From Methylobacillus glycogenes JCM 2850 (GTDB taxonomy: Bacteria > Pseudomonadota > Gammaproteobacteria > Burkholderiales > Methylophilaceae): a DNA stretch of 64,000 bases. Where the stretch lies: positions 248,001 through 312,000 of the forward strand of contig NZ_BAMT01000002.1 of the NCBI RefSeq assembly GCF_000617925.1, written 5' to 3'. Below the pieces are notes generated by a model. The model was not told the DNA's origin and did not search any database. It saw only the letters and a program-made list of their open reading frames with translations. The position numbers and the translations under genes were made by a program. This document shows, one piece after another, positions 1-53,005 of this stretch (its first letter is position 1; each line of letters begins with the position of its first letter).

Positions 1-2
1 GG

Positions 3-494
3 TTGTATGTCAGCGCAGAAGAAGCCAAGTATGTCGATGTGGTGGATATTGCCAAGCGCACCTCCATCAAGCTGGTGGAAGTGGGCGACAGGCCCCGTGG
101 CATAGGCTTCCTGCCTGATAGTTCACGCGCTTATGTGGCCAATGAGGCTGCAGGCACGGTGTCGGTGTTTGATACCAGCAAGCACGAAGTGATTGCCACT
201 ATCCCTGTAGGCAAGCGCTCCAACGGCGTGAAAGTCCTGCCTAATGGCAAAAAGGTGTATATCTCCAATGGCGGTGACGGCACTCTGTCTGTGATTGATA
301 CTGCCAGCAACAAGGTGACCGCGACTATTCCAGTAGGCAAGCGCCCCTGGAATATGGATGTAACGCCTGATGGCAAAAAGCTCTATGTTGCCAACGGCAA
401 GTCCAACTCGGTTTCGGTGATTGATACTGAGCATGACAAGGCGCTCAAGGAAATTACCGTAGGTGATACACCTTGGGGTGTGTTTGTTCGGTAA
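3..494 (+). CDS. YVTN-type beta-propeller protein, quinoprotein-associated (5' end missing)
   Basis: The open frame runs off the left edge, so only the last 163 residues are present and the first codon here is not a true start. The visible part is made of repeats of about 42 residues, each with a GxxPxG-type turn, a YVAN or YISN strand and a VSVIDT strand, which is the YVTN beta-propeller pattern. It most resembles the periplasmic beta-propeller family found beside PQQ-dependent dehydrogenases (PQQ-dependent catabolism-associated beta-propeller). Neighbouring cytochrome b561 and SoxYZ-like genes support that setting. Its exact role is not known; a scaffold or electron-transfer partner for a quinoprotein is an inference. 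Confidence 0.75.
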   Translation: MYVSAEEAKYVDVVDIAKRTSIKLVEVGDRPRGIGFLPDSSRAYVANEAAGTVSVFDTSKHEVIATIPVGKRSNGVKVLPNGKKVYISNGGDGTLSVIDTASNKVTATIPVGKRPWNMDVTPDGKKLYVANGKSNSVSVIDTEHDKALKEITVGDTPWGVFVR

Positions 495-590: not shown

Positions 591-612
591 CCGTTTGCAT
601 GTTGGAACCCAA

Positions 613-1212
613 ATGAATCAAACCACCCGCTATACCAAAGTAGCTATCCTGCTGCATTGGCTCGTTGCCCTTGGCATCATCGCCCTGCTGGGGCTAGGGT
701 GGTATATGAATGAGCTGCCCAAGGGCGGCCCCAAGGTCAGCAGTTTTGATCTGTTTGATCTGGGCTTGTACACCGTGCAGCTGTCGGAAGCTGCCTCACC
801 TCGTACCTTCTACTTCAACCTGCATAAATCCATAGGCCTGACCGTGTTCTTCATCATAGGTCTGCGCGTGTATTGGCGCTTGATGCATCAGCCGCCTGCC
901 TTGGCAGCCAGCCTCAAACGTTGGGAGCAGGTTGTGGCCCATGGCACGCATCACCTGCTGTATGTGCTGATGGTGCTGATGCCAGTGACAGGTATGCTCA
1001 CCACGCTTTATAGCAAATATGGCCTAAACTGGTTTTCCATCCCGGTGCTGCCGGGGCTGGATGACCCTGCTTTGCGGGATTTCTTTGTGGCAGCGCATGA
1101 GCTTACGGCAACGCTGCTGGTGATTCTGATAGGCTTGCATATCGCGGCTGCCCTGAAGCACAGCCTGATAGACCGCGATGACACCATGAAGCGTATGTCT
1201 ATATTCCGCTAA
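613..1212 (+). CDS. Cytochrome b561 family membrane protein
   Basis: A 199-residue integral membrane di-haem cytochrome b that would pass electrons between the quinone pool and a periplasmic partner. The sequence begins with the family signature TKVAILLHWLVALGII (TM1, with the haem-ligand type His) and has further hydrophobic segments near residues 75-95, 120-140 and 165-185, with histidines at HKSIGL, HGTHHLLY, HELTA and GLHIAAALKH. Length fits the bacterial b561 (CybB) family. I chose ATG 613; a longer reading from TTG 595 adds six non-conserved residues. Sitting between two quinoprotein-associated genes, it may be the electron acceptor for that system (inference). Confidence 0.88.
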   Translation: MNQTTRYTKVAILLHWLVALGIIALLGLGWYMNELPKGGPKVSSFDLFDLGLYTVQLSEAASPRTFYFNLHKSIGLTVFFIIGLRVYWRLMHQPPALAASLKRWEQVVAHGTHHLLYVLMVLMPVTGMLTTLYSKYGLNWFSIPVLPGLDDPALRDFFVAAHELTATLLVILIGLHIAAALKHSLIDRDDTMKRMSIFR

Positions 1213-1330: not shown

Positions 1331-2131
1331 TCAATTTACGGCAAGAGCATGTTCAAAGTGAGCACCTTCATTATCCGTGGCCTGAATTTCCAGTTTGCCG
1401 GGCTTGGGCGGGATAAAGCTGAAACGCAGGTAGGGGTCTTCACTGGTGCCCACGCCAAAATCAGCCTCTAACACTGGTTTGCCGTCATAGCTGAAACTGG
1501 CTTTGTTGATATAAAGCGCGGGGCGGAAGCCCTGCGAAACCAAATCGCGCTGCAAACCAGTAAACATGGGGTGCTTGATATTGAAGGTGGTCACTGTTGC
1601 CTGATTAAACTGCACTGGCGTTTCGACATTGAGCTTGATTTTGCCAGCATGGGCCAGCAGTTCTTTTTCCTCCGCCCCCAGCGTGCCGCCACAGCCACCA
1701 GAGGCGCGAATTTGTATGGCGGTCATATAGAGCTTGCCGTCAGCGGTTTCGCCTATGGCATGTACAAAGGAATCGGTTTCCAGACGGATACGTGTAGAAA
1801 GCTGCAACTGCCCTAGTAATTCAGACAAATGGTAAGTGGCCGCCAGCTGTATGGGGTTGGCATCAACAATGATATAAACAGACTTGATGGCATCAGGCGC
1901 ATTCTGCGGCTTGTCTATGGTGAGCGTAATTGGCACCTGGGCGCCACTCTCCGCGCGCTTGGGTGCTGAAAGCTTGATGAAATCCACCTCTTCAATCTGG
2001 CGCTTGGGGAAGAAACCTTCCTTGATCACGGGCCAGATTTCGGCAGAAGCTTCGGCATGGGCGTGGCTGGCTGTGGTCAGCATGGTCACGCTGAGTAAAG
2101 TGGTTACAACAACGGCCTGGATACATTTCAT
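1331..2131 (-). CDS. Quinoprotein dehydrogenase-associated SoxYZ-like carrier protein
   Basis: A 266-residue exported protein. Residues 1-27 form a signal peptide with a likely cut after SHAHA. The mature part carries a SoxY-like domain with a cysteine in ASGGCGGTLG (about residues 144-153), and a C-terminal SoxZ-like immunoglobulin domain (about 170-266, with TTFNIKHPMFTG and RFSFIPPKPGKLEI). In sulfur-oxidising Sox systems SoxY carries substrate on a C-terminal Cys while SoxZ binds it; the fused SoxYZ-like family occurs next to PQQ-dependent alcohol dehydrogenases and its cargo is unknown. Convergent with cytochrome b561 and downstream of the receptor gene on the same strand, 157 bases apart. 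Confidence 0.85.
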   Translation of the reverse strand: MKCIQAVVVTTLLSVTMLTTASHAHAEASAEIWPVIKEGFFPKRQIEEVDFIKLSAPKRAESGAQVPITLTIDKPQNAPDAIKSVYIIVDANPIQLAATYHLSELLGQLQLSTRIRLETDSFVHAIGETADGKLYMTAIQIRASGGCGGTLGAEEKELLAHAGKIKLNVETPVQFNQATVTTFNIKHPMFTGLQRDLVSQGFRPALYINKASFSYDGKPVLEADFGVGTSEDPYLRFSFIPPKPGKLEIQATDNEGAHFEHALAVN

Positions 2132-2229: not shown

Positions 2230-2261
2230 CAGGGGCCGACTGCACAGACAGTCGACCCCTG
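2230..2261 (-). terminator. Strong hairpin downstream of the TonB receptor gene
   Basis: CAGGGG (2230-2235) plus CGACTG (2237-2242) pair with CAGTCG (2249-2254) plus CCCCTG (2256-2261), with one C/A mismatch and a 6-base loop. It lies 27 bases past the receptor stop codon on the minus strand. There is no clear T tract, so it may act as a 3' stabiliser or a weak terminator. Confidence 0.5.
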
Positions 2262-2288: not shown

Positions 2289-4409
2289 TTAGAACATATA
2301 AGTCGCGTTCAGACCCATCAGCCAGTTACGACCAGCAGAAGGTTCATAGTAGCGGCCATTGTTATCATTAACTCGTACTGAACCTATGTATTCCTTGTCG
2401 AAGATATTCTCTACACGCACATATTCGCTAAAGCGCCAGTGCTCTAGTTTCTGCTGGAAGCCAGCGCGAATATTGAAGATGGTATAGGAATTGGCAGACG
2501 CTGAGTTCAGATCGTCGGTATACACCTGACTATTGCGACGGCCTTCGAAAGCTGTGTTAAAGCCACTGGCTTGGTGCCTCCAAGCAACTTCACCATAAAT
2601 CTGTGAACGATATGTGCCCGGGATATAGTTGCCAGAAGCCACTGTGCGAGAAGCGCCATTGACTGTATAGCTGTAACTGTCATCAAACTTGGCATCCAAC
2701 AATGTGTAGGAGCCAAATAAGGAAATGTTGTTCTCGAATTTGGACTCAATCGAGAATTCGGCACCATTACGTCTGGTCTTGCTGGCGTTCATATAAGTGA
2801 CGTTGTTGTTCAGATTCTGCTGAACCACAATTTCATCATCGGTGCGCACATGGAACAGGGTTAGGTTGGCAATGCTATTGCTCCCCAGGAAGACCTTGGT
2901 GCCGACTTCAAGATTACGGCTTTCACTTGGCTTGAGGCGCAAATTGGGGCCGGTAATCGGTGATACGGTAGCATAAGCTGCTTCAATGAAGGTCGGTGTT
3001 TCAAAGCCTTTGCCGTAGTTGGCATAAATATTCCAGGTAGGCGTTACCTTCCACACCGCACCCACTACTGGAGTGGTTTTCTCATATGTCACGCTGCCGC
3101 CATTGTCTCCGTTTGAGCCAGTGCCAGTAACAAAGTTATCATTCACTTCCAGTTTGACCTTGGTTCTCCGTGCACCCAGGTGCAAATCAAGGTTATCCAA
3201 TACCGACCATTGTCCTTGCACATATTTATCGGAATTGGTGGCGATGTTTTCTTCGTCGCGATTCAGCGCAGTTGTCTTAATGCCATTGCTAGCACCAATG
3301 TCCATGCGGTCATCAGTCATCTTGGCATAGGTCAAACCCAAGCTCAGTGTATATGGACGATTGAGTAGCTGGCCTTGATTATTCCAGCGCAAATCTGTAC
3401 CCCAGAATTCTCTATCAATCGAGCTGGCACGGCCTGCGCCTGTGGTTTGGCTGATGGAAAGGTATTGCTCATTCTTGCGATTACCTACATAGGAAATCAG
3501 GTTGATCGAATTGTTCTCGTTGATTTTATGCTCAAGGTTAAATCCAACCTGAGTTTGACTGCGCGATACACGCGTATTGGCGCGCAGTGCACTTGCTGCA
3601 GCCTGTTTGCGATCAGCACGTACTTCAGCTAGTTGTAGTCCCAAGGGATCATCGGCTTCTTGGTCGAACCAATTGATTAAGGTAGTAAGTTTGGTATCTT
3701 CATTGAGATTGAAGCGGAACTTGGCTGTACCTTGCTCTTTTTTGTTACTGCTGTGATCACGATAGCCATCGGAGGAATAGTTGGAGTAGTTGATCAAGTA
3801 TTCCAGACCATCGGCATTACCAGCAGCACGCACGTTTTCACGTCTTGTGTCATAGCTGCCGAACAGAACTCCTGCCGACAGTTCATGGCCTTGTGGAGCA
3901 TTTTCTGTAAATAGCTGCACCACGCCGCCAGATGAGTTGCCATAGAGTGCGGAGAAAGGACCACGCATGACTTCAATGCTTTGCATGGAACCGAGATCTA
4001 CACTTCCTGGCTGACCACTACCATCAGGATAGGTGAGGGGAATCCCATCAACATACAGCCTGATACCCCGCACGCCAAATGATGAACGTGCACCAAAGCC
4101 GCGTGTAGAAATTTGTGGGTCTTGTGACATCTGGGTACGGTTTTGCGCCGTAATGCCGGGCACACGAATCAGGCTTTCTGAAAGCGTCATTTGTGCCTGG
4201 CCATCCTGAATGTTTTCCTTGGTCACCACATCAATTGCCACAGGCAGATCAAAGCTTTTTTGCGCTGCGCGCGTGGCGGTGACCACCACCGGGGAGACAA
4301 CTTGCAGGGATTCTTTATTATCTGCAGCGCCTTCTTCTGCCATGGCGCTGGCATAAGGCCAGACACTGAGCACAGCCAGTGGAATGAGTTTGAGGTGGAA
4401 TGTGTTCAT
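2289..4409 (-). CDS. TonB-dependent outer membrane receptor, PqqU/YncD-like
   Basis: A 706-residue outer-membrane transporter. It has a signal peptide (residues 1-24, cut near ASAMA), a TonB-box-like SPVVVTATR, a plug domain (about 45-160) with ISTRGFGARSSFGVRGIRLY and VMRGPFSALYGNSSGG, then a 22-strand barrel ending in the aromatic NATYMF. From memory the plug and C-terminus (NGRYYEPSAGRNW) closely match E. coli YncD, now known as PqqU, a receptor for pyrroloquinoline quinone. The gene lies beside quinoprotein accessory genes, which fits PQQ uptake. Alternatives are a siderophore or lanthanophore receptor; a weak Fur-like site upstream keeps that open. Family call is strong, substrate is inference. 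Confidence 0.9.
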   Translation of the reverse strand: MNTFHLKLIPLAVLSVWPYASAMAEEGAADNKESLQVVSPVVVTATRAAQKSFDLPVAIDVVTKENIQDGQAQMTLSESLIRVPGITAQNRTQMSQDPQISTRGFGARSSFGVRGIRLYVDGIPLTYPDGSGQPGSVDLGSMQSIEVMRGPFSALYGNSSGGVVQLFTENAPQGHELSAGVLFGSYDTRRENVRAAGNADGLEYLINYSNYSSDGYRDHSSNKKEQGTAKFRFNLNEDTKLTTLINWFDQEADDPLGLQLAEVRADRKQAAASALRANTRVSRSQTQVGFNLEHKINENNSINLISYVGNRKNEQYLSISQTTGAGRASSIDREFWGTDLRWNNQGQLLNRPYTLSLGLTYAKMTDDRMDIGASNGIKTTALNRDEENIATNSDKYVQGQWSVLDNLDLHLGARRTKVKLEVNDNFVTGTGSNGDNGGSVTYEKTTPVVGAVWKVTPTWNIYANYGKGFETPTFIEAAYATVSPITGPNLRLKPSESRNLEVGTKVFLGSNSIANLTLFHVRTDDEIVVQQNLNNNVTYMNASKTRRNGAEFSIESKFENNISLFGSYTLLDAKFDDSYSYTVNGASRTVASGNYIPGTYRSQIYGEVAWRHQASGFNTAFEGRRNSQVYTDDLNSASANSYTIFNIRAGFQQKLEHWRFSEYVRVENIFDKEYIGSVRVNDNNGRYYEPSAGRNWLMGLNATYMF

Positions 4410-4528: not shown

Positions 4529-5491
4529 CTACTGCGCTGAGATAAAGGTTTGCAGCGAGGTGGGCGTGGGCAGGTTGTCTATCACGCCGCGCTGGCGTAT
4601 CAACAGGCTGGCGCTGGCACAGCCATGCTCTAGGGCGCGTGTGAGGTCAGAAGATTGCAGCAGGCTGGCCAGCAGGGCGCTGGCAAAGGCGTCACCTGCG
4701 CCCAGGCTGTCTACCACTGTGGTGCTATAAGCCGCATGCTCATGCCAGCTGCCGTCATCCAGCAAGGCGATGGCACCCTGGTCACCCAGGGTCAGAATCA
4801 GAGATTTGCCTGGGTAGCGCTGGGTGAATTGCAGTTCATGCAGCACATGTTGGGCAGCTTGGCGCGTAGCCAAGGCAGATTGATCGACTTGCAGCCAGGC
4901 TGCGGCTTCGCTCTGGTTCATGATCAGCACATCGCTGAGCGCAAGCATGCTGGGTGTGAGGGGTTTGAATGGGGAAGGGTTGAGTACGGTCAGGCGGCCT
5001 GCGGCTTGTGCCAGGGTAAAGGCCGCGCAAATCGCTGTCTCTGATGATTCAAAGCTGGCATACACCAGGCTGGCCTGTTGTATGGCGCTAGTCTGGGGTT
5101 GAATATGCTCAGCCGTCAGCAGGGCATTGGCGCCTGCATGCACGGTAATCTGGTTTTGGCCTGCCTCATCGATGAGTGCTACGCCGTGGCCGTTATATTC
5201 CCCCACGGTCACACGGTTGATATGCGTCAATTGATGCAGGCTGAGAATATCCTGGCACTGATGTTGCGAGAGTGGGGTAGTGCCACAAGGGATCAAGCCA
5301 TGGAGCGGTATGCCCAGCTTGTGCAGGCCCAGCAACACATTTAAACCTTTGCCGCCAGTTTCGCAGTACAAGTCCAGGGCCTGTAACGATTCGCCGGGCT
5401 GGGGGAAGCGCCTGACAAAGTAAATTTGCGCCATCATCAAGCTGGCAAGCACAAATGCCGGGGCAGGGTTGGGCTTGAAGCTTGATAGCAT
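4529..5491 (-). CDS. PfkB-family carbohydrate kinase
   Basis: A 320-residue cytoplasmic sugar or nucleoside kinase of the ribokinase/PfkB fold. The N-terminal substrate motif GGKGLN is at about residues 47-52, and the C-terminal ATP and anion-hole motif DSLGAGDAF, with the catalytic Asp, is near residue 262. The middle contains MNQSEAAAWL, like the NxxE Mg-binding motif of the family. Length is normal (about 310). The start is 6 bases beyond the stop of the upstream GntR regulator, so the two are probably one transcription unit. Substrate cannot be told; ribose, fructose 1-phosphate or tagatose 6-phosphate are family options. Confidence 0.85.
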   Translation of the reverse strand: MLSSFKPNPAPAFVLASLMMAQIYFVRRFPQPGESLQALDLYCETGGKGLNVLLGLHKLGIPLHGLIPCGTTPLSQHQCQDILSLHQLTHINRVTVGEYNGHGVALIDEAGQNQITVHAGANALLTAEHIQPQTSAIQQASLVYASFESSETAICAAFTLAQAAGRLTVLNPSPFKPLTPSMLALSDVLIMNQSEAAAWLQVDQSALATRQAAQHVLHELQFTQRYPGKSLILTLGDQGAIALLDDGSWHEHAAYSTTVVDSLGAGDAFASALLASLLQSSDLTRALEHGCASASLLIRQRGVIDNLPTPTSLQTFISAQ

Positions 5492-5497
5492 TGGGTG

Positions 5498-6283
5498 TTA
5501 TCCCTTCATTTTGACGCGATAGGCGTAGGCGTCACCACGGAAAGTACCTTCGACATATTCCAGCAATATGCCATCTGGCGAATAGCTACGGCGCTTGATC
5601 AGCAGGCAGGGCTGAGGGCTGGTGAAGCCAAAGGCCTGGTTTTCAATATCATTGGAAAGCACGGCCTCTACGGTTTGTTCACACCAGTCCAACGGGTGCT
5701 GACACTTTTGATTGATGACCTGATACACCGAGCCTTGTAAATCAGCCGTGGCCAGCTCTGGCAGGTGATGCAGGTTGTACCAGGCAACCTCGTGCGATAA
5801 GGGCTTATCGTCACCACAGCGTATACGCTCCAGCTTTAGCAGCGATGAGTTGGAGTTAAGGCCAAACATGGAGGCCATGCCTCTGTCATTGATAATGGCT
5901 TGGTCAAGAATGCGGGTGGAAGGCTTCATTCCCAGCTCCTGCATTTCCTGGGTAAAGCCCCGCAGCTTGAACATATGGGTGTCTAGCCGCCCTGGCGTCA
6001 GTACCGTGGTGCCGCCCTTGCGATTGCTGGTAATCAGCTTGCGGTTGCGTAGCTCCATATAGCCGCGCTTGATGGTGATCTTGCTGACACCTAGGGTTTC
6101 AGAGAATACGGTTTCTGTCGGTAGCTGTGTGCCCGGTTTGATATCGCCCTGAAGAATCAGGGTTTCAAGTTGCTGGAACAGCTGCGCGTACAGAGGCTCA
6201 GGAGCGTCTTTGTTCAGGGTGATCAGGCTGGGGATGGTGCTGGCGTGAGCTTTGGCGTTTTTCAATGGTGACAGACGTGGCAA
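5498..6283 (-). CDS. GntR/HutC-family transcriptional regulator
   Basis: A 261-residue regulator. Residues about 25-95 are a GntR winged helix-turn-helix (PLYAQLFQQLETLI, PGTQLPTE, LGVSKITIKRGYMEL). Residues about 110-258 form the UTRA ligand-binding domain of the HutC subfamily (LKLERIRCGDDKPLSHEVAW and a C-terminal FRGDAYAYRVKMKG). UTRA domains usually bind phosphosugars or small metabolites. It lies directly upstream of and close to the PfkB kinase, so it probably controls it in response to that pathway's substrate (inference). About 190 bases upstream hold no gene and probably contain its promoter. Confidence 0.88.
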   Translation of the reverse strand: MPRLSPLKNAKAHASTIPSLITLNKDAPEPLYAQLFQQLETLILQGDIKPGTQLPTETVFSETLGVSKITIKRGYMELRNRKLITSNRKGGTTVLTPGRLDTHMFKLRGFTQEMQELGMKPSTRILDQAIINDRGMASMFGLNSNSSLLKLERIRCGDDKPLSHEVAWYNLHHLPELATADLQGSVYQVINQKCQHPLDWCEQTVEAVLSNDIENQAFGFTSPQPCLLIKRRSYSPDGILLEYVEGTFRGDAYAYRVKMKG

Positions 6284-6476: not shown

Positions 6477-7738
6477 TTAAATAATCCCTTCCAGCACTTG
6501 CACCTGGACTTCAGTGCCAGCAGGTAAATTGCCTACTGCATCTTCCAGCACAATAAAGCAATTGGCCTCAGACATTGAGCGCAGAATGCCTGAGCCTTGA
6601 TTGCCAGTGGGGCGTACTTGCCAGTGACCGTCTTCATCGGCAAACAAGATGCCGCGCTGAAACTCTGTACGGCCAGCCAGCTTGCGTATCGGTTCTACAC
6701 AGATGGCCTTGAACAATGGCTGGCTGGGCAGGGGTGTTTGGCCCATAAGATGCAGCAATGCCTCGCGCACAAACTGATAGAAAGTCACCATCACCGCCAC
6801 CGGGTTGCCAGGCAAGCCAAAGTAATGCGCATTACCCACTTTGCCGTAGCCAGTGGTCGACCTGGCTTCATGGCGATTTTCCAGAACACCACCTGGCCTA
6901 GTTTTTCCAGAATCTGTTTCATGAAATCGGCTTCACCTACCGATACGCCACCACTGGTCAGCACCACATCCGCCACGGTAGAGGCATGCAGCAAGGTAGC
7001 TTCCAACTGCGCGGGGTCGTCACCGACCACGCCCAGGTCTATCACGTCCACACCCAGGCGTTCCAGCATGCCATGCAGGGTGTAGCGATTGCTGTCGTAA
7101 ATCTGACCCTGTTGCAGGGTTTGCCCTATGCTGACCAGCTCATCGCCCGTGGAAAAGAATGCCACACGCAGTTTGCGGTATACCTCCACCTCGCCTATAC
7201 CTAGCGAGGCTATCAACCCCAGATCAGCGGCGCGCAGCATGCGGCCAGGTGCAAACACCGCTTGTCCTGCGCCTATGTCTTCACCTGCGTAGCGCACATT
7301 GGCTTGGGGTTTGGGCTGCTCAACGATGCTGAGCGTGTCGCCTGTCACTTCGGTACGCTCCTGCATGATGACGGTGTCTGCCCCCTCGGGAATTACCGCC
7401 CCCGTCATGATGCGGATGCATTGCCCGGCTTGCAGGGTGCCTGTGTAAGGTCGGCCAGCATAAGCAGTGCCGACAATAGTCAGGCTGGCGTTGCCTATAT
7501 CGCGGCTGTGCAGGGCAAAACCATCCATGGCCGAGTTGTCGTGGCTGGGCACGTTGTGCGGCGAAAGAATATCGCTGGCAAGCACACGGCCTAGCGCGCT
7601 CTTCAGAGCCAGTTTTTCCGTGCGTTGTATGGGCTGCAGGTAATCGCGGATCAACTTTCTGGCCTGTAGCACAGGCAAAGAGTTAGGGTCGTAATCGTCC
7701 TGGCAGCTAATAAGCTGGTTTAATGTGGCGCGTGTCAT
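6477..7738 (-). CDS. moeA: Molybdopterin molybdenumtransferase MoeA (broken by one missing base)
   Basis: MoeA inserts molybdate into adenylylated molybdopterin, the last step of molybdenum cofactor synthesis. Visible landmarks are the N-terminal PIQRTEKLALKSALGRVLA, the conserved HDNSAMDGFAL, VLTSGGVSVGEADF and KPGRPLATAK, and LPGNPVAVMVTF near the C-terminus. The frame breaks at about 6840, where one A (or G) seems missing in the Lys codon before GNAHYFGLPGNP; with it the protein is 420 residues, normal for MoeA. ATG 7738 overlaps the mobB stop as ATGA, so mobA, mobB and moeA form an operon. A longer start at 7759 is less likely. Confidence 0.9.
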
Positions 7739-8313
7739 GATGTTTGGCCTTGCATCCATTGCAAAATATAGTCAGCGATTGCCGCTGGGTCGTTGAGGTC
7801 TAGCCGGGGTATGGCGCTGGTTTCAGCGAGCGCTACGTCGCTGGCGATGGCCATGATGCTGCTGTCGGTGCTGGCCAGTAGCGGATAGCCCAAGCTAGGG
7901 CGGTGCACCTCGATCTTGGCAATATCTGCCTGCTTGAAACCTTCTACCAGCACCAGGTCTATTGCCGAAGCATCCAGCTGTGGCAGCAGCTCAGCCAGGC
8001 TGACCTCGGCGGCAGGGTTGGGCAGGCGCTGGCGTTCTGTCATCAAGGCCCAGCGTATATCCGAGCCTACCAGGGTTTGCACTGCGCCTGCTTCACGCAG
8101 GCGATAACTATCCTTGCCCGGCTTGTCCACATCAAACTGGTGATGGGCATGCTTGATCATGGAAAGCCTGATGCCACGCTGCTGTAGCGCTGGAATCAGT
8201 TGGGTCAATAAAGTGGTCTTGCCTGAGCCGCTGCCATAAGCGCATATGCCCAGCACTGGGCGGGGATACGGCAGGGTTGCGGATGCCGAGGTCACGCGGC
8301 CTGTTCCAGCCAC
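7735..8313 (-). CDS. mobB: Molybdopterin-guanine dinucleotide biosynthesis adapter MobB
   Basis: A 192-residue P-loop GTPase-like protein that assists MobA in making the guanine dinucleotide form of molybdenum cofactor. The Walker A motif GSGSGKTTLL is near residue 28, followed by KHAHHQFDVDKPGKDSYRL and LVLVEGFKQADIAKIEVHR, all typical of MobB. The frame overlaps the end of mobA; a GTG at 8295 gives a neat GTGA overlap with the mobA stop and may be the real start, while ATG 8313 gives the longer form annotated here. Confidence 0.9.
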   Translation of the reverse strand: MAGTGRVTSASATLPYPRPVLGICAYGSGSGKTTLLTQLIPALQQRGIRLSMIKHAHHQFDVDKPGKDSYRLREAGAVQTLVGSDIRWALMTERQRLPNPAAEVSLAELLPQLDASAIDLVLVEGFKQADIAKIEVHRPSLGYPLLASTDSSIMAIASDVALAETSAIPRLDLNDPAAIADYILQWMQGQTS

Positions 8314-9008: not shown

Positions 9009-10014
9009 CTAGCCACCAGTTTGCGACATAAAGCGTATCACCGCTGGGGCCTGGCGCTGCAAATCAAAATCGTGACCCTTGGGCTTGACTCGCATGGAAG
9101 CCAAAATGGCCTCTATCAAAGGCGTATCGTCGTTAGGATAAGCGCGCAGCAAAGGCATGAGGTCTACGCGATCTTCCTGTCCCAGGCATAGATAAAGCTC
9201 ACCTTTGCAGGTGATACGCACGCGGTTGCAGGCCTCACAGAAATTATGGCTATGCGGAGAAATAAACCTATGCGGGTGTTGGCATGCGCTACCCGCCAGT
9301 ACTTGGCCGGGCCGCCTGTGCTCTCAGCACTGCTGATCAAGGGGAAATGGCCTTGCAACAGCTTGAGTGTGGCCTGGTTGCTGACATAGGTCGAATCACG
9401 CTGATGATCGACTGCACCCAGCGGCATTTCCTCAATAAAGGCGATATCCAGCCCCTGGGCGATGGCAAAGTCAACCAGCGGAATCGCTTCATCATCATTG
9501 ATGCCACGCATCAATACCGTATTCAGCTTGATATTGGCAAAGCCTGCGGCCTGAGCCGCCTCTATGCCGCGCAAGACCTTGCTCAAGTCACCGACGCGGG
9601 TAATCTTGCGAAAGCGTTCTGGGTCCAGACTATCGACGCTGATATTGATGCGGCTGAGTCCGGCCTGTTTCAGTGGCTGGGCAAAATGCTCAAGTTGCGA
9701 GCCGTTGGTGGTCATCACCAGTTCTTTCAAACCCGGTAAATGCCCAATCTCTTCAAACAGGGACAAAGCATTCTTACGCACCAAGGGCTCACCCCCGGTA
9801 ATACGTACCTTGCTGACGCCCAGTGCCACAAATACTTTGACCAGGCGCGCACATTCTTCCAGCGTTAATACTTCTTCCCTGGGCAAAAAGCTCATGTCTT
9901 CACTCATGCAATACACGCAGCGGAAATCGCAGCGATCCGTAATGGAAAGCCGGATGTAATCAACCCGTCGACCAAACTGGTCTATCAGTTGATGAGCTTG
10001 CTCGGTGTAAGCAT
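9009..10014 (-). CDS. moaA: GTP 3',8-cyclase MoaA (two missing bases)
   Basis: Radical-SAM enzyme that starts molybdenum cofactor synthesis by cyclising GTP. The N-terminal cluster motif is [11 protein letters not shown] (three Cys), followed by [10 protein letters not shown]; the C-terminal cluster motif [21 protein letters not shown] is spread over two frames, and the protein ends in the conserved Gly-Gly. One break is near 9265, where a T is missing in a T run ([14 protein letters not shown] is restored by adding it). A second is near 9988, where adding C joins the only good ATG (10014) to [14 protein letters not shown]. Repaired length is 335 residues, normal for MoaA. The second break is less certain than the first. 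Confidence 0.88.
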
Positions 10015-10097
10015 GGTATGGTTAGAAATAACGCCTCAGGGTGTTAGGTAAATATGGGGGTGATTGCCTATGATACAAGCCGCAATGCTTTAAAGAA

Positions 10098-10140
10098 GCT
10101 GGATTGCAAAGAGGCTGGATTGCTCAAAGAAACTGGATTG
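10098..10140. repeat. Three direct copies of RCTGGATTG between moaA and the ModE-like gene
   Basis: GCTGGATTGC occurs at 10098-10107 and 10114-10123, and ACTGGATTG at 10132-10140, each preceded by an AAGA/AGAG/AAGA-like stretch. Spacing is 16 and 18 bases. The array lies in the divergent promoter region, about 90-130 bases before the regulator gene, and could be a regulator binding array. Confidence 0.4.
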
Positions 10141-10230
10141 TAAGTCTAGCTTCTAGTATAAACAATGCCTGAACCATGCTTTTGAACTGCCATACCTGTT
10201 CTGACTGACTTGCTATCTGGAAATTCCACT

Positions 10231-10578
10231 ATGAGTACTATCAGCATCAAAATTCGTTTGCCGCATCAACATCTTGTGGCCATAGGCCCAGGCAAGGCCG
10301 ATCTGCTGGAAGCGATAGGCCGTAGCGGATCAATCTCCGCAGGTGCGCGTGAAATGGGCATGTCATATAAGCGCGCCTGGGATCTGGTAGATGCCATGAA
10401 CAAAAGCTTCCGTCAGCCCCTGGTGTCTACCGCAACGGGAGGTAGCCATGGCGGGGGTGCCAAGGTAACTGAATTTGGCCAGGAAGTGCTTGAACGCTAT
10501 CGGCAGCTGGAGCAGATCGCCAGTCAAAGCATAGCGTCTGAGGCTCAGGCGCTCTCAGCATTGCTTCAGCCTGTTTAG
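10231..10578 (+). CDS. ModE-type molybdate-responsive regulator, DNA-binding domain only
   Basis: A 115-residue protein with the LysR-like winged helix of ModE: GPGKADLLEAIGRSGSISAG, AREMGMSYKRAWDLVDAMN and GGSHGGGAKVTEFG. It lacks the C-terminal molybdate-binding (TOBE) domains of E. coli ModE, so how it senses molybdate, if it does, is unclear; short ModE-like proteins of this size are common. ATG 10231 is chosen over TTG 10210 for the conserved N-terminus and a GGAAA about 10 bases upstream. Divergent from moaA, so it may control the molybdenum cofactor genes or a molybdate transporter elsewhere (inference). Confidence 0.82.
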   Translation: MSTISIKIRLPHQHLVAIGPGKADLLEAIGRSGSISAGAREMGMSYKRAWDLVDAMNKSFRQPLVSTATGGSHGGGAKVTEFGQEVLERYRQLEQIASQSIASEAQALSALLQPV

Positions 10579-10616
10579 TGCCTAGCTGCGTGCGCAGCCA
10601 TCCATCACCCTAAAGC

Positions 10617-50508: not shown

Positions 50509-53005
50509 TTGCGAAATACTGTATTACCATCCATTGCACCAGCAAACTCTCAGCCTGGCATTGCCAGGCTGAGGCCTATCGTTGCCGCCTTGTTGCTGGC
50601 AACTGCCGCCAGCCCAAGCTTTAATGCCTATGCAGCAAGTACTGTTGCCACATCTGCGGTGCAGCCTTATGCGCTGCCAGCAGCGTCACTGTCCAGCACT
50701 CTGAATCAGATTTCCCATGCGGCCAAGATCACCTTGAGTGTGGAGGCCAGCCTGGTAGCAGGCAAAACTTCCAGCCCGGTCAGTGGCAACTACACGCCAC
50801 GTCAGGCGCTGGAACAGGCGCTGCTGGGCACAGGCTTGAGCCTGGTAGAAAACGAGCCAGGCAGCTATGGCTTGAAGCGGGTGGAACAGGCGGGTAACAC
50901 GCCTGCCGCCAACCATGCGCCACAGCAAGGTAGCTTGCCCGAGGTGGCGGTGGTGGCCAAGAGCGAACGTCGCAGTGCCACTACCGATGGTACGGCTTCT
51001 TATGCCTCGCCAGTAGTCACCATAGGCAAGGGCGAGCAGGCGCTCAAGGATATTCCGCAGTCGGTCAGCGTGCTGACACGCCAGCGCATGAATGACCAAG
51101 GCCTGGTGGATCTCACTGACGCCGTCGACAATATCACCGGGCTGGTAGCGACGCGTGGTGTGGGTGCTGGTACTGTCATCAGTTCACGCGGCTTCCAGAT
51201 CAACACCATGCAATATGACGGTGTGCCGCTGGTGCGCAATATGTATTCACTGGGCAACTGGAGCCAGGACACCCTGGCCATGTATGACCGCGTTGAAGTG
51301 TTGCGTGGGGCTGCGGGTCTGTTGCAAGGCACAGGCAGCCCGGGTGGTGCGATCAATTTCGTGCGCAAGCGCGGTCAGGCCGAACATACGCTCAGCCTGC
51401 AGGCCAAGGCAGGTTCCTGGGATCAGTACGGTGTGCAGCTGGATGTAGGCGGCCCGCTGAATGCCGATGGCTCGGTACGCGGCCGTCTGGTGCTGGATGA
51501 GGACAGGGCTGGCTCTTATATCAATTATGTCTGGCATAGAAACCAGACTGCCTATGCCGCCCTGGATTTTGATCTGGGTGCCAATACGGTGCTGGGTGTA
51601 GGCATCAGCCATCTGGATAATCAGTCGCGCCCCAGTTTTGTGGGTTTCCCGCGTTATGCCAATGGCAATGATATTGGTTTGTCGCGCTCGACTTTTACGG
51701 GCGCCACCTGGAACCGCGCCAGCAATACGCAAACCACGCTTTATGCCGACCTGACGCATCAGTTTAATGCGCAGTGGCGTTATAAGCTGAGTGCGACCAG
51801 CATGACCGAAGATAATGAAAATGTGCATCAGCGCGCTGCCGGGGCAGTCGCCAATGATGGTTCTGGTGTGCGCTATGGCGATTTTGCAGTGGATTTCCAC
51901 GGCCGCAGTCGTGGCCTGGATATGTTTGTGCAAGGCAATTTTGCCGCGGCTGGCTTGCAGCATGAGCTGGTATTGGGTGCCAATTATGCCAACTATCAAA
52001 CTGAGGATGCCTATGCGCGCCGATGGACATCAGGGGCCAATATCTTCAATCTGAACAATCACCGAGCTTGGGAAAACTTTGACAGCATCGCCGCGGGTGG
52101 CGTGCGCGTAGAGAGTGAATACAACACGCGCCAAACCGGGGTCTATACCACGCTGCGTACCAAGTGGAGCGACAATCTGACCTCCACCATAGGCGGACGC
52201 AATAGCTGGTACAAACAAAGTTATGCTCAACCTGGCTCCACGCCAAGCGTGGAACAAGGCAACGGCCGCTTTACGCCTTATCTGGGTCTGGTATATGCCT
52301 CAATGATGCCTGGTCGGTGTATGGCAGTTATACCGATGTTTTTGAAACCCAAAGTGCACGTACTGTTAGCGGCTCTGTGCTGGAGCCAGTGATAGGCAGC
52401 AATTACGAGGCAGGGATCAAGGGTGAGTTTGCCGATGGCAGGCTGACCAGCTCGCTGGCGGTGTTCCGCTACGATCATGAAAACCGTGCCGTGCTGGATT
52501 ATGCCGCAGGCATGGTCTGCGGCACGGGCTATTGCTCCAAGGCGGCAGGTGAGGTGCGTAGCCAGGGGGTAGAGGCTGAAATCAATGGCGAGTTGTTGCT
52601 AGATTGCAAGTGTTCACTGGCTATACCTATAACACCACCAAGTTCCTCAGTGATCCGGTCAATCAGGGCAGCATTTTCAGCACCTGGACGCCTAAACATC
52701 TATTGAAGGTCTGGGCCAGCTATCAACTACCTGGGCAATTCAACAAGCTGACGCTGGCAGCTGGCGTCAATATGCAGAGCCATGTCGTAAGCTATGACAA
52801 TGTTTTTGAGATTCCCGGCTTTGCGGTATGGAATGCCAGGGTGGCTTACCAGCTTAACCCGGAGCTGTTGTTGTCACTCAATGCCAATAACCTGTTCGAT
52901 AAACGCTATTTTGTGCCTTCCTACAATAGTACAGGCAGTAACAACTATTACGGCGAGCCCAGCAGTGTGATGCTGACGCTGCGTTATAGTCCGCGCTTGA
53001 AGTAA
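50509..53005 (+). CDS. FecA-type TonB-dependent siderophore receptor with signalling domain (two missing bases)
   Basis: An outer-membrane transporter of 832 residues after repair. A signal peptide (cut near NAYA) precedes an STN signalling domain (about 52-130, ALPAASLSSTLNQISHAAK), which contacts FecR; then the plug (DIPQSVSVLTRQRMNDQG, VEVLRGAAGLLQGTGSPGG) and the barrel ending RYSPRLK. Frames break near 52302 (before NDAWSVYGSYTDVF) and near 52607 (GATTGCAAG should read GATTGGCAAG, giving DWQVFTGYTYN). The plug resembles ferric hydroxamate or catecholate receptors such as FoxA/FpvA types; ligand not determined. Start TTG 50509 has AAGGGG upstream. Confidence 0.9.

Follow-up and report, generated by a model that had tools for sequence, protein, structure and literature searches.

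A PqqU-type TonB-dependent receptor and its quinoprotein-associated neighbours in Methylobacillus glycogenes

Background

Two questions meet at a locus of the methylotroph Methylobacillus glycogenes JCM 2850 (family Methylophilaceae): by what means a PQQ producer retains the cofactor, and what function the SoxYZ-like and SoxH-like genes at quinoprotein loci serve. The stretch analysed here (the window) comprises 64,000 nucleotides of a 3.25 Mb draft genome (contig C27, positions 248001-312000). A first-pass annotation described in it a receptor resembling Escherichia coli YncD, now called PqqU, in a row with three genes of families known from quinoprotein dehydrogenase loci. The PqqU family, its spread and its occasional synteny with pqq genes are already published. 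The pairing of PqqU with a SoxYZ-like gene, the recurrent linkage of PqqU, SoxYZ and SoxH, the valine at position 274 (E. coli numbering) and the residue pattern at 274, 276 and 672 that are described below were not found in the searched portions of the openly licensed PMC literature. The questions are whether the receptor is a genuine PqqU, and whether its neighbourhood says anything about what it does.

Identity of the receptor

The receptor gene occupies 2289..4409 on the minus strand and encodes a product of 706 amino acids, in which Pfam profile searches place both the plug (PF07715) and the barrel (PF00593) over cut-off. The likeness of plug and C-terminus to YncD/PqqU, proposed in the first-pass annotation, is borne out: the three motifs on which it was based are present in the translation, E. 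coli K-12 pqqU has LSIRGFGSRSTYGIRGIRLY, VLRGPFSALYGNASGG and NGRYYEPSPGRNY at the corresponding positions, and 270 of the 680 residues aligned pairwise are identical (40%). The PqqU model is the best NCBIfam family for the protein (4.5e-172, 574 bits), followed by the TonB-siderophor family at 181 bits. The score lies below the 1200-bit equivalog cut-off of this model (NF041535), a narrow annotation threshold that is separate from the published defining residues; the PqqU proteins of two loci discussed below, L159 and L114, likewise score under it (726 and 619 bits).

Structural comparisons point the same way. A sequence search of the PDB returned PqqU entries at 4e-139 and 6.7e-139, the next receptor, FecA, reaching only 1.1e-22. 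An AlphaFold model built from a 28-row alignment has a mean pLDDT of 86.8 and contains the barrel strands; in a structure search it retrieved 9c4o first, 6v81 second and FecA third, and it shares its fold with E. coli PqqU (6v81, 9c4o) at TM-scores of 0.87 and 0.85 by query length. In a tree of 85 rows, a quick reconstruction for which the program warned of long branches, 77 PqqU rows including that of E. coli stand apart from eight other TonB receptors of the host genome with an SH-aLRT support of 100. The receptor is also the only strong PqqU match in that genome, the runner-up covering part of the model at 99 bits, and its nearest named relatives, at about 80% identity, belong to Methylobacillus gramineus and M. 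rhizosphaerae. The sequence, the fold, the tree and the signature residues all identify the product of the gene at 2289..4409 as an orthologue of PqqU (YncD).

Sequence is a poor guide to what a TonB receptor transports, the structure search places FecA next after PqqU, and moeA lies upstream of the receptor gene in many relatives, so that a different ligand has to be considered, be it a siderophore, ferric citrate or, given the adjoining Moco genes, a molybdenum compound. Such a ligand is highly improbable in view of the tree, the signature residues, the margin over FecA in the PDB search and the PQQ-linked neighbours of PqqU in other lineages. A siderophore, citrate or heme receptor was accordingly dropped as a candidate, the tree, the PDB margin and the ligand residues all being against it. 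Placement among siderophore receptors together with loss of the binding residues had been named at the outset as the outcome that would overturn the PqqU assignment; the receptor instead separates from the eight other receptors and keeps all three signature residues.

Searched for the TonB receptor barrel, the host genome gives 64 matches, some of them pieces of one gene, which is a large number for a methylotroph of 3.2 Mb. Within the window, another TonB receptor lies at 51625-52894 on the plus strand, in three frame pieces.

Residues of the binding site

Passages of PMC12124388 define PqqU by an aromatic residue at 99 together with R304 and R365, and describe K274 and R536 as important in the E. 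coli protein, where K274E impaired function, yet not as family-defining. The signature is complete in the window receptor, where the three positions are taken by F111 (codon 4077..4079, minus strand; the E. coli equivalent, Y99, stacks on PQQ), R311 (3477..3479, minus strand) and R368 (3306..3308, minus strand). The last equivalence comes from the PDB search alignment and a further alignment, both of which place R368 at this position, which fell into a gap of the pairwise aligner. The same signature runs through 185 distinct PqqU rows that were picked by similarity and not by these residues (39 labelled Methylophilaceae and 146 others): the aromatic residue at 99 is present in 185 of 185, R304 in 182 and R365 in 185. 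Seven of 200 loci lacking a full-length receptor (5/160 in one set and 2/40 in another) had been dropped before counting.

Among the PQQ contacts, Q84, Q121, R304, Q308, R365 and Y481 are retained (E. coli numbering) and Y99 is replaced by phenylalanine. Four are altered: K274 to valine, Q310 to leucine, N477 to isoleucine and R536 to asparagine. The window receptor thus carries neither of the two basic residues stressed for E. coli, having V281 at the first place and asparagine at the second. Plug residues, R304, R365 and the C-terminal motif are shared between the two proteins, which differ in V274, R276, R672 and N536 of the window receptor. The growth-assay passage of PMC12124388 names a variant N447E; since E. 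coli PqqU has tryptophan at 447 and asparagine at 477, N477E is evidently meant there.

The altered position 274 belongs to a wider pattern. It corresponds to V281 in the segment V281-S282-R283 (codons 3561..3569, minus strand), the counterpart of E. coli K274-T275-I276, and R679 (codon 2373..2375, minus strand) takes the place of E. coli I672, a position that is basic in rows without a basic 274. When 49 distinct rows with V, A or L at 274 were compared with 96 rows with K or R (147 rows in total, two with E being left aside), the most discriminating columns were 274, 276 and 672. None of the 39 Methylophilaceae rows has lysine at 274 (V in 37, A in one, L in one), and all 39 have R or K at both 276 and 672. 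In the 146 other rows position 274 is K in 94, R in 8, E in 17, Q in 17, V in 9 and A in one. Over all 185 rows, a basic 274 without a basic 672 occurs 102 times, the reverse 81 times, neither twice and both never; one row (L201) with a gap at 672 was scored as not basic there. Position 276 did not track 274 in most pairings, the wider exchange being seen at 672 only. The mutual exclusion of 274 and 672 is a strong pattern that comprises few independent events: on the tree, about three changes per site suffice, which leaves shared ancestry as a possible explanation, and statistical proof of coevolution failed, an independent-pairs test having two (starred) or three pairs, too few for significance.

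The strand predicted at 280-295 in the AlphaFold model (window receptor numbering) includes the equivalents of both 274 and 276; being two residues apart on one predicted strand, they should face the same side. We also considered V274 as a trait of methylotrophs and rejected it, as it is inseparable from ancestry and as 10 of the 146 rows not labelled Methylophilaceae likewise have V or A there, some of them being perhaps misbinned or misnamed metagenome-assembled genomes (one record is titled Klebsiella).

For homologues with E274, passages of PMC12124388 propose co-transport of a metal with PQQ. Extended to the window receptor, this would mean import of PQQ bound to calcium or a lanthanide, the loss of K274, at the metal position of PQQ enzymes, making room for the ion. 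That the bearers are methylotrophs, with xoxFJG-like genes about 11 kb from the receptor in the host, is in keeping with the idea. Against it, a metal would find no ligand in V, A or L, and the basic 276 and 672 gained in every Methylophilaceae row would repel one; we regard it as improbable, a lanthanide-PQQ substrate in particular being possible, with the basic residues at 276 and 672 speaking against it. The E274 homologues resemble the window receptor in having no basic residue at 274 and differ from it in that the latter combines V274 with a basic 276, while a basic 672 is common to the window type and to 15 of the 17 E274 rows. This last observation counts against the metal in those homologues as well and suggests that the positive charge may have moved instead, so that an exchange between 274 and 672 could explain the published K274E homologues more simply than co-transport of a metal does.

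Gene neighbourhood and PQQ synthesis in the host

From the adjoining stretch (L001) into the window, the gene order is tonB (minus), a SoxH-like gene of TIGR04559 (minus), a propeller gene (plus), b561 (plus), a SoxYZ-like gene of TIGR04557 (minus) and pqqU (minus). The quinoprotein dehydrogenase-associated SoxYZ-like carrier lies at 1331..2131 on the minus strand and scores 239 bits (NCBIfam cut-off 140), and the SoxH-like gene just left of the window scores 402 bits (cut-off 280). A membrane protein of the cytochrome b561 type, a general family (PF01292), is encoded at 595..1212 on the plus strand. The 3' part of a TIGR03866-like beta-propeller gene occupies 1..494 on the plus strand; the protein of the whole gene (L001:11541-12494) reaches 226.5 bits where the TIGR03866 cut-off is 287.3. 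The initial description of three neighbours from quinoprotein-locus families therefore holds strictly for the SoxYZ-like gene and only loosely for the b561 gene, whose family is general, and for the propeller gene, which falls below cut-off. In E. coli, the divergent neighbour of pqqU, yncE, is a propeller gene too, as near the window pqqU. The surroundings differ from those of the E. coli gene in the nearby Sox-like, b561 and tonB genes. The TonB-family gene lies just left of the window, about 4 kb from pqqU, and further away, ending about 11 kb from the receptor, is a set comprising a quinoprotein dehydrogenase fragment, a MoxJ-type gene (TIGR03871, over cut-off) and a MoxG-type gene (TIGR03872, below cut-off), which from their order and families are probably xoxF (a fragment), xoxJ and an xoxG-like gene. 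On the other side, a PfkB kinase gene and a GntR regulator gene (4529-6283) separate moeA from pqqU, as they do in four of five other loci of the genus.

A hairpin of 14 pairs follows the pqqU stop codon at 2230..2261 (minus strand), found by hairpin scan and folding; it is terminator-like, with a weak T tail. The intergenic stretch folds at a z-score of -3.7, and the terminator scan itself gave no more such sites than shuffled sequences did. The 90 bases after the stop fold at -6.5 to -37 kcal/mol in 13 relatives, a strong hairpin thus being common and not constant; a promoter scan of the sequence returned no more matches than shuffles. Because of this hairpin and because the b561 and propeller genes lie on the opposite strand, a single PqqU-SoxYZ operon is unsupported in the window.

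Unlike E. coli, the host makes PQQ. The genes pqqB, pqqC, pqqD and pqqE are found together at C28:441103-444382, each over its NCBIfam cut-off, and inspection by eye of the 700 bases before pqqB recognised no pqqA. According to passages of PMC12124388, synthesis genes are present in 23% of PqqU carriers. With pqqBCDE in the same genome, recapture of its own PQQ would be the likeliest role of the receptor, and the first-pass proposal that a PQQ-making methylotroph might recover its cofactor in this way appears sensible, substrate and function being read from the genes.

Linkage in other genomes

PqqU is found in 78 of 120 Methylophilaceae genomes and TIGR04557 over cut-off in 98; the two lie at most 5 kb apart in 28 of the 78 PqqU-bearing genomes, spread over 13 of 19 genera, and not in the other 50 (the TIGR04557 hits listed reach down to 110 bits, below the cut-off of 140). 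It could be asked whether the accessory genes are bystanders held near PqqU by inherited gene order and functionally unconnected with it. Genes for Moco (moaA, mobA, mobB, moeA) lie upstream of PqqU in the family and are as constant there as SoxYZ (moeA in 17 of 27 family loci, SoxYZ in 15 of 27), and the accessory block is missing from seven loci of genera g7, g10, g19 and g22, where PqqU sits between coaBC-like and dut genes. These facts, like the hairpin that parts pqqU from the SoxYZ-like gene in the window, would be expected of bystanders. The pair nevertheless survives rearrangement: in genus g20, five of six close pairs are on opposite strands, and in L052, L063 and L070 flhB-flhA is inserted between the two genes. 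In Candidatus Methylopumilus universalis, pqqB, pqqC and pqqE precede PqqU on the same strand, pqqE ending 1.4 kb away.

Wider sampling found PqqU in 132 of 399 genomes of the order, family members included, and in 43 of 370 of the class. PQQ-linked genes (pqqB/C/E, quinoprotein dehydrogenase, TIGR03866-like, SoxYZ and SoxH, at 100 bits or more) lie at most 7 kb from PqqU in 18 of 27 family loci, 19 of 53 order loci, 6 of 40 class loci and 27 of 80 loci of a named set that overlaps the family set; as 11 of the 53 order loci are shorter than 14 kb, the order count is low if anything, and 34 of the 40 class-level loci are without any such marker. A control on 20 other TonB receptors, taken from the 64 receptor matches of the host genome alone, gave 2 of 20, both being quinoprotein dehydrogenase matches. 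In seven loci, a gene of the glucose/sorbosone dehydrogenase family (PF07995) lies at most 0.9 kb from PqqU, all over the Pfam cut-off and four of them weakly (41 to 49 bits).

Two loci outside the family are most informative. In L159, from an uncultured beta proteobacterium, PqqU, TIGR04557 (221 bits) and TIGR04558 (426 bits) stand in a row on one strand. In L114 (family f21) the row runs TIGR04557 (197 bits), TIGR04558 (410 bits), a gene for TonB, PqqU; the first three genes overlap one into the next by 4 bases, and a gap of 59 bases precedes PqqU. To judge from this arrangement, they form an apparent operon. The SoxH subtype in both is TIGR04558, against TIGR04559 near the window, and both receptors have K274 and I672, so that the linkage extends beyond one inherited block and is independent of the V274 layout. 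The linkage of a PQQ receptor with quinoprotein accessory genes, first noted in the window, is thus seen again in several genera and at two loci from beyond the family; together with the persistence of the pair through inversion and insertion and the overlapping genes of L114, this makes mere inherited proximity somewhat unlikely as its explanation.

Proposed function

Taken together, orthology, fold, signature residues, the PQQ synthesis genes and the recurrent linkage suggest that the window receptor is very probably a PQQ importer serving mainly recapture; from these observations we infer its substrate, affinity and direction of transport and the role of its neighbours. PQQ would be bound on the extracellular side between the plug (Q96, F111, Q133) and the basic barrel residues R311 and R368, with R283, R679 or both standing in for E. 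coli K274. Passage of the bound PQQ into the periplasm would be powered by TonB, perhaps encoded by the tonB gene that lies about 4 kb from pqqU. The main task would be to recapture leaked PQQ of the cell's own making, with uptake of PQQ made by others in addition, for use by periplasmic quinoproteins. Downstream, the SoxYZ-like, SoxH-like, b561 and propeller proteins may serve the maturation of quinoproteins, redox control or the protection of PQQ.

SoxYZ-like and SoxH-like genes are tied to quinoprotein loci elsewhere, as here: passages of PMC12997753 describe them in the ped cluster of Pseudomonas putida (PP_2666, PP_2677, PP_2678) and in Methylobacterium extorquens (META1p1703-1705). The roles offered there for the Sox-like pair are disulfide formation, cofactor stabilisation and protection of PQQ from sulfur nucleophiles; its physical link to a PQQ receptor would fit such cofactor-centred roles. 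Unlike the window locus, the main text of PMC12997753 names no PqqU (term search). A TonB receptor and a TIGR03866/YncE propeller gene also occur in the methanol dehydrogenase cluster of the xoxF3 type in Acidobacteria and Gemmatimonadetes, phyla other than that of the window host, and passages of PMC10875860 on these clusters do not call that receptor PqqU. The linkage of a PQQ-type receptor to Sox-like genes in more than one lineage, in one case tightly packed together with a tonB gene, is indicative of a cofactor-centred role and provides a genetic test.

A further, rather unlikely elaboration would unite the residue pattern with the neighbourhood. Two charge layouts would exist, one with the basic residue at 274, as in E. 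coli, and one with it at 672 (and also at 276 in Methylophilaceae), the Methylophilaceae type being tuned to a different chemical form of PQQ, for instance a metal complex or a sulfur adduct. The SoxYZ-like, SoxH-like and b561 proteins would then clean, reduce or load the recaptured cofactor, so that the whole would be a line for its capture and repair and more than a simple importer.

Other features of the host genome

Frame breaks were noted at window 6477-7759, L001:484-1407, L001:8148-10340 and L206:9936-10613, affecting moeA, the quinoprotein dehydrogenase, a histidine kinase, the start of tonB and a second SoxYZ-like gene; since the moeA and tonB families are unbroken in related genomes, indel errors in the draft assembly are likely. 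This second SoxYZ-like gene (L206, C27:62001-80000, at 9936-10613) lies about 5 kb from a mau-like (methylamine dehydrogenase) set, named from its ORFs. A second quinoprotein alcohol dehydrogenase-like gene is found at 2090-3994 of L275 (C15:20307-37731), and two large FecA-type receptors and a FecR-like gene lie some 4 kb and more from it.
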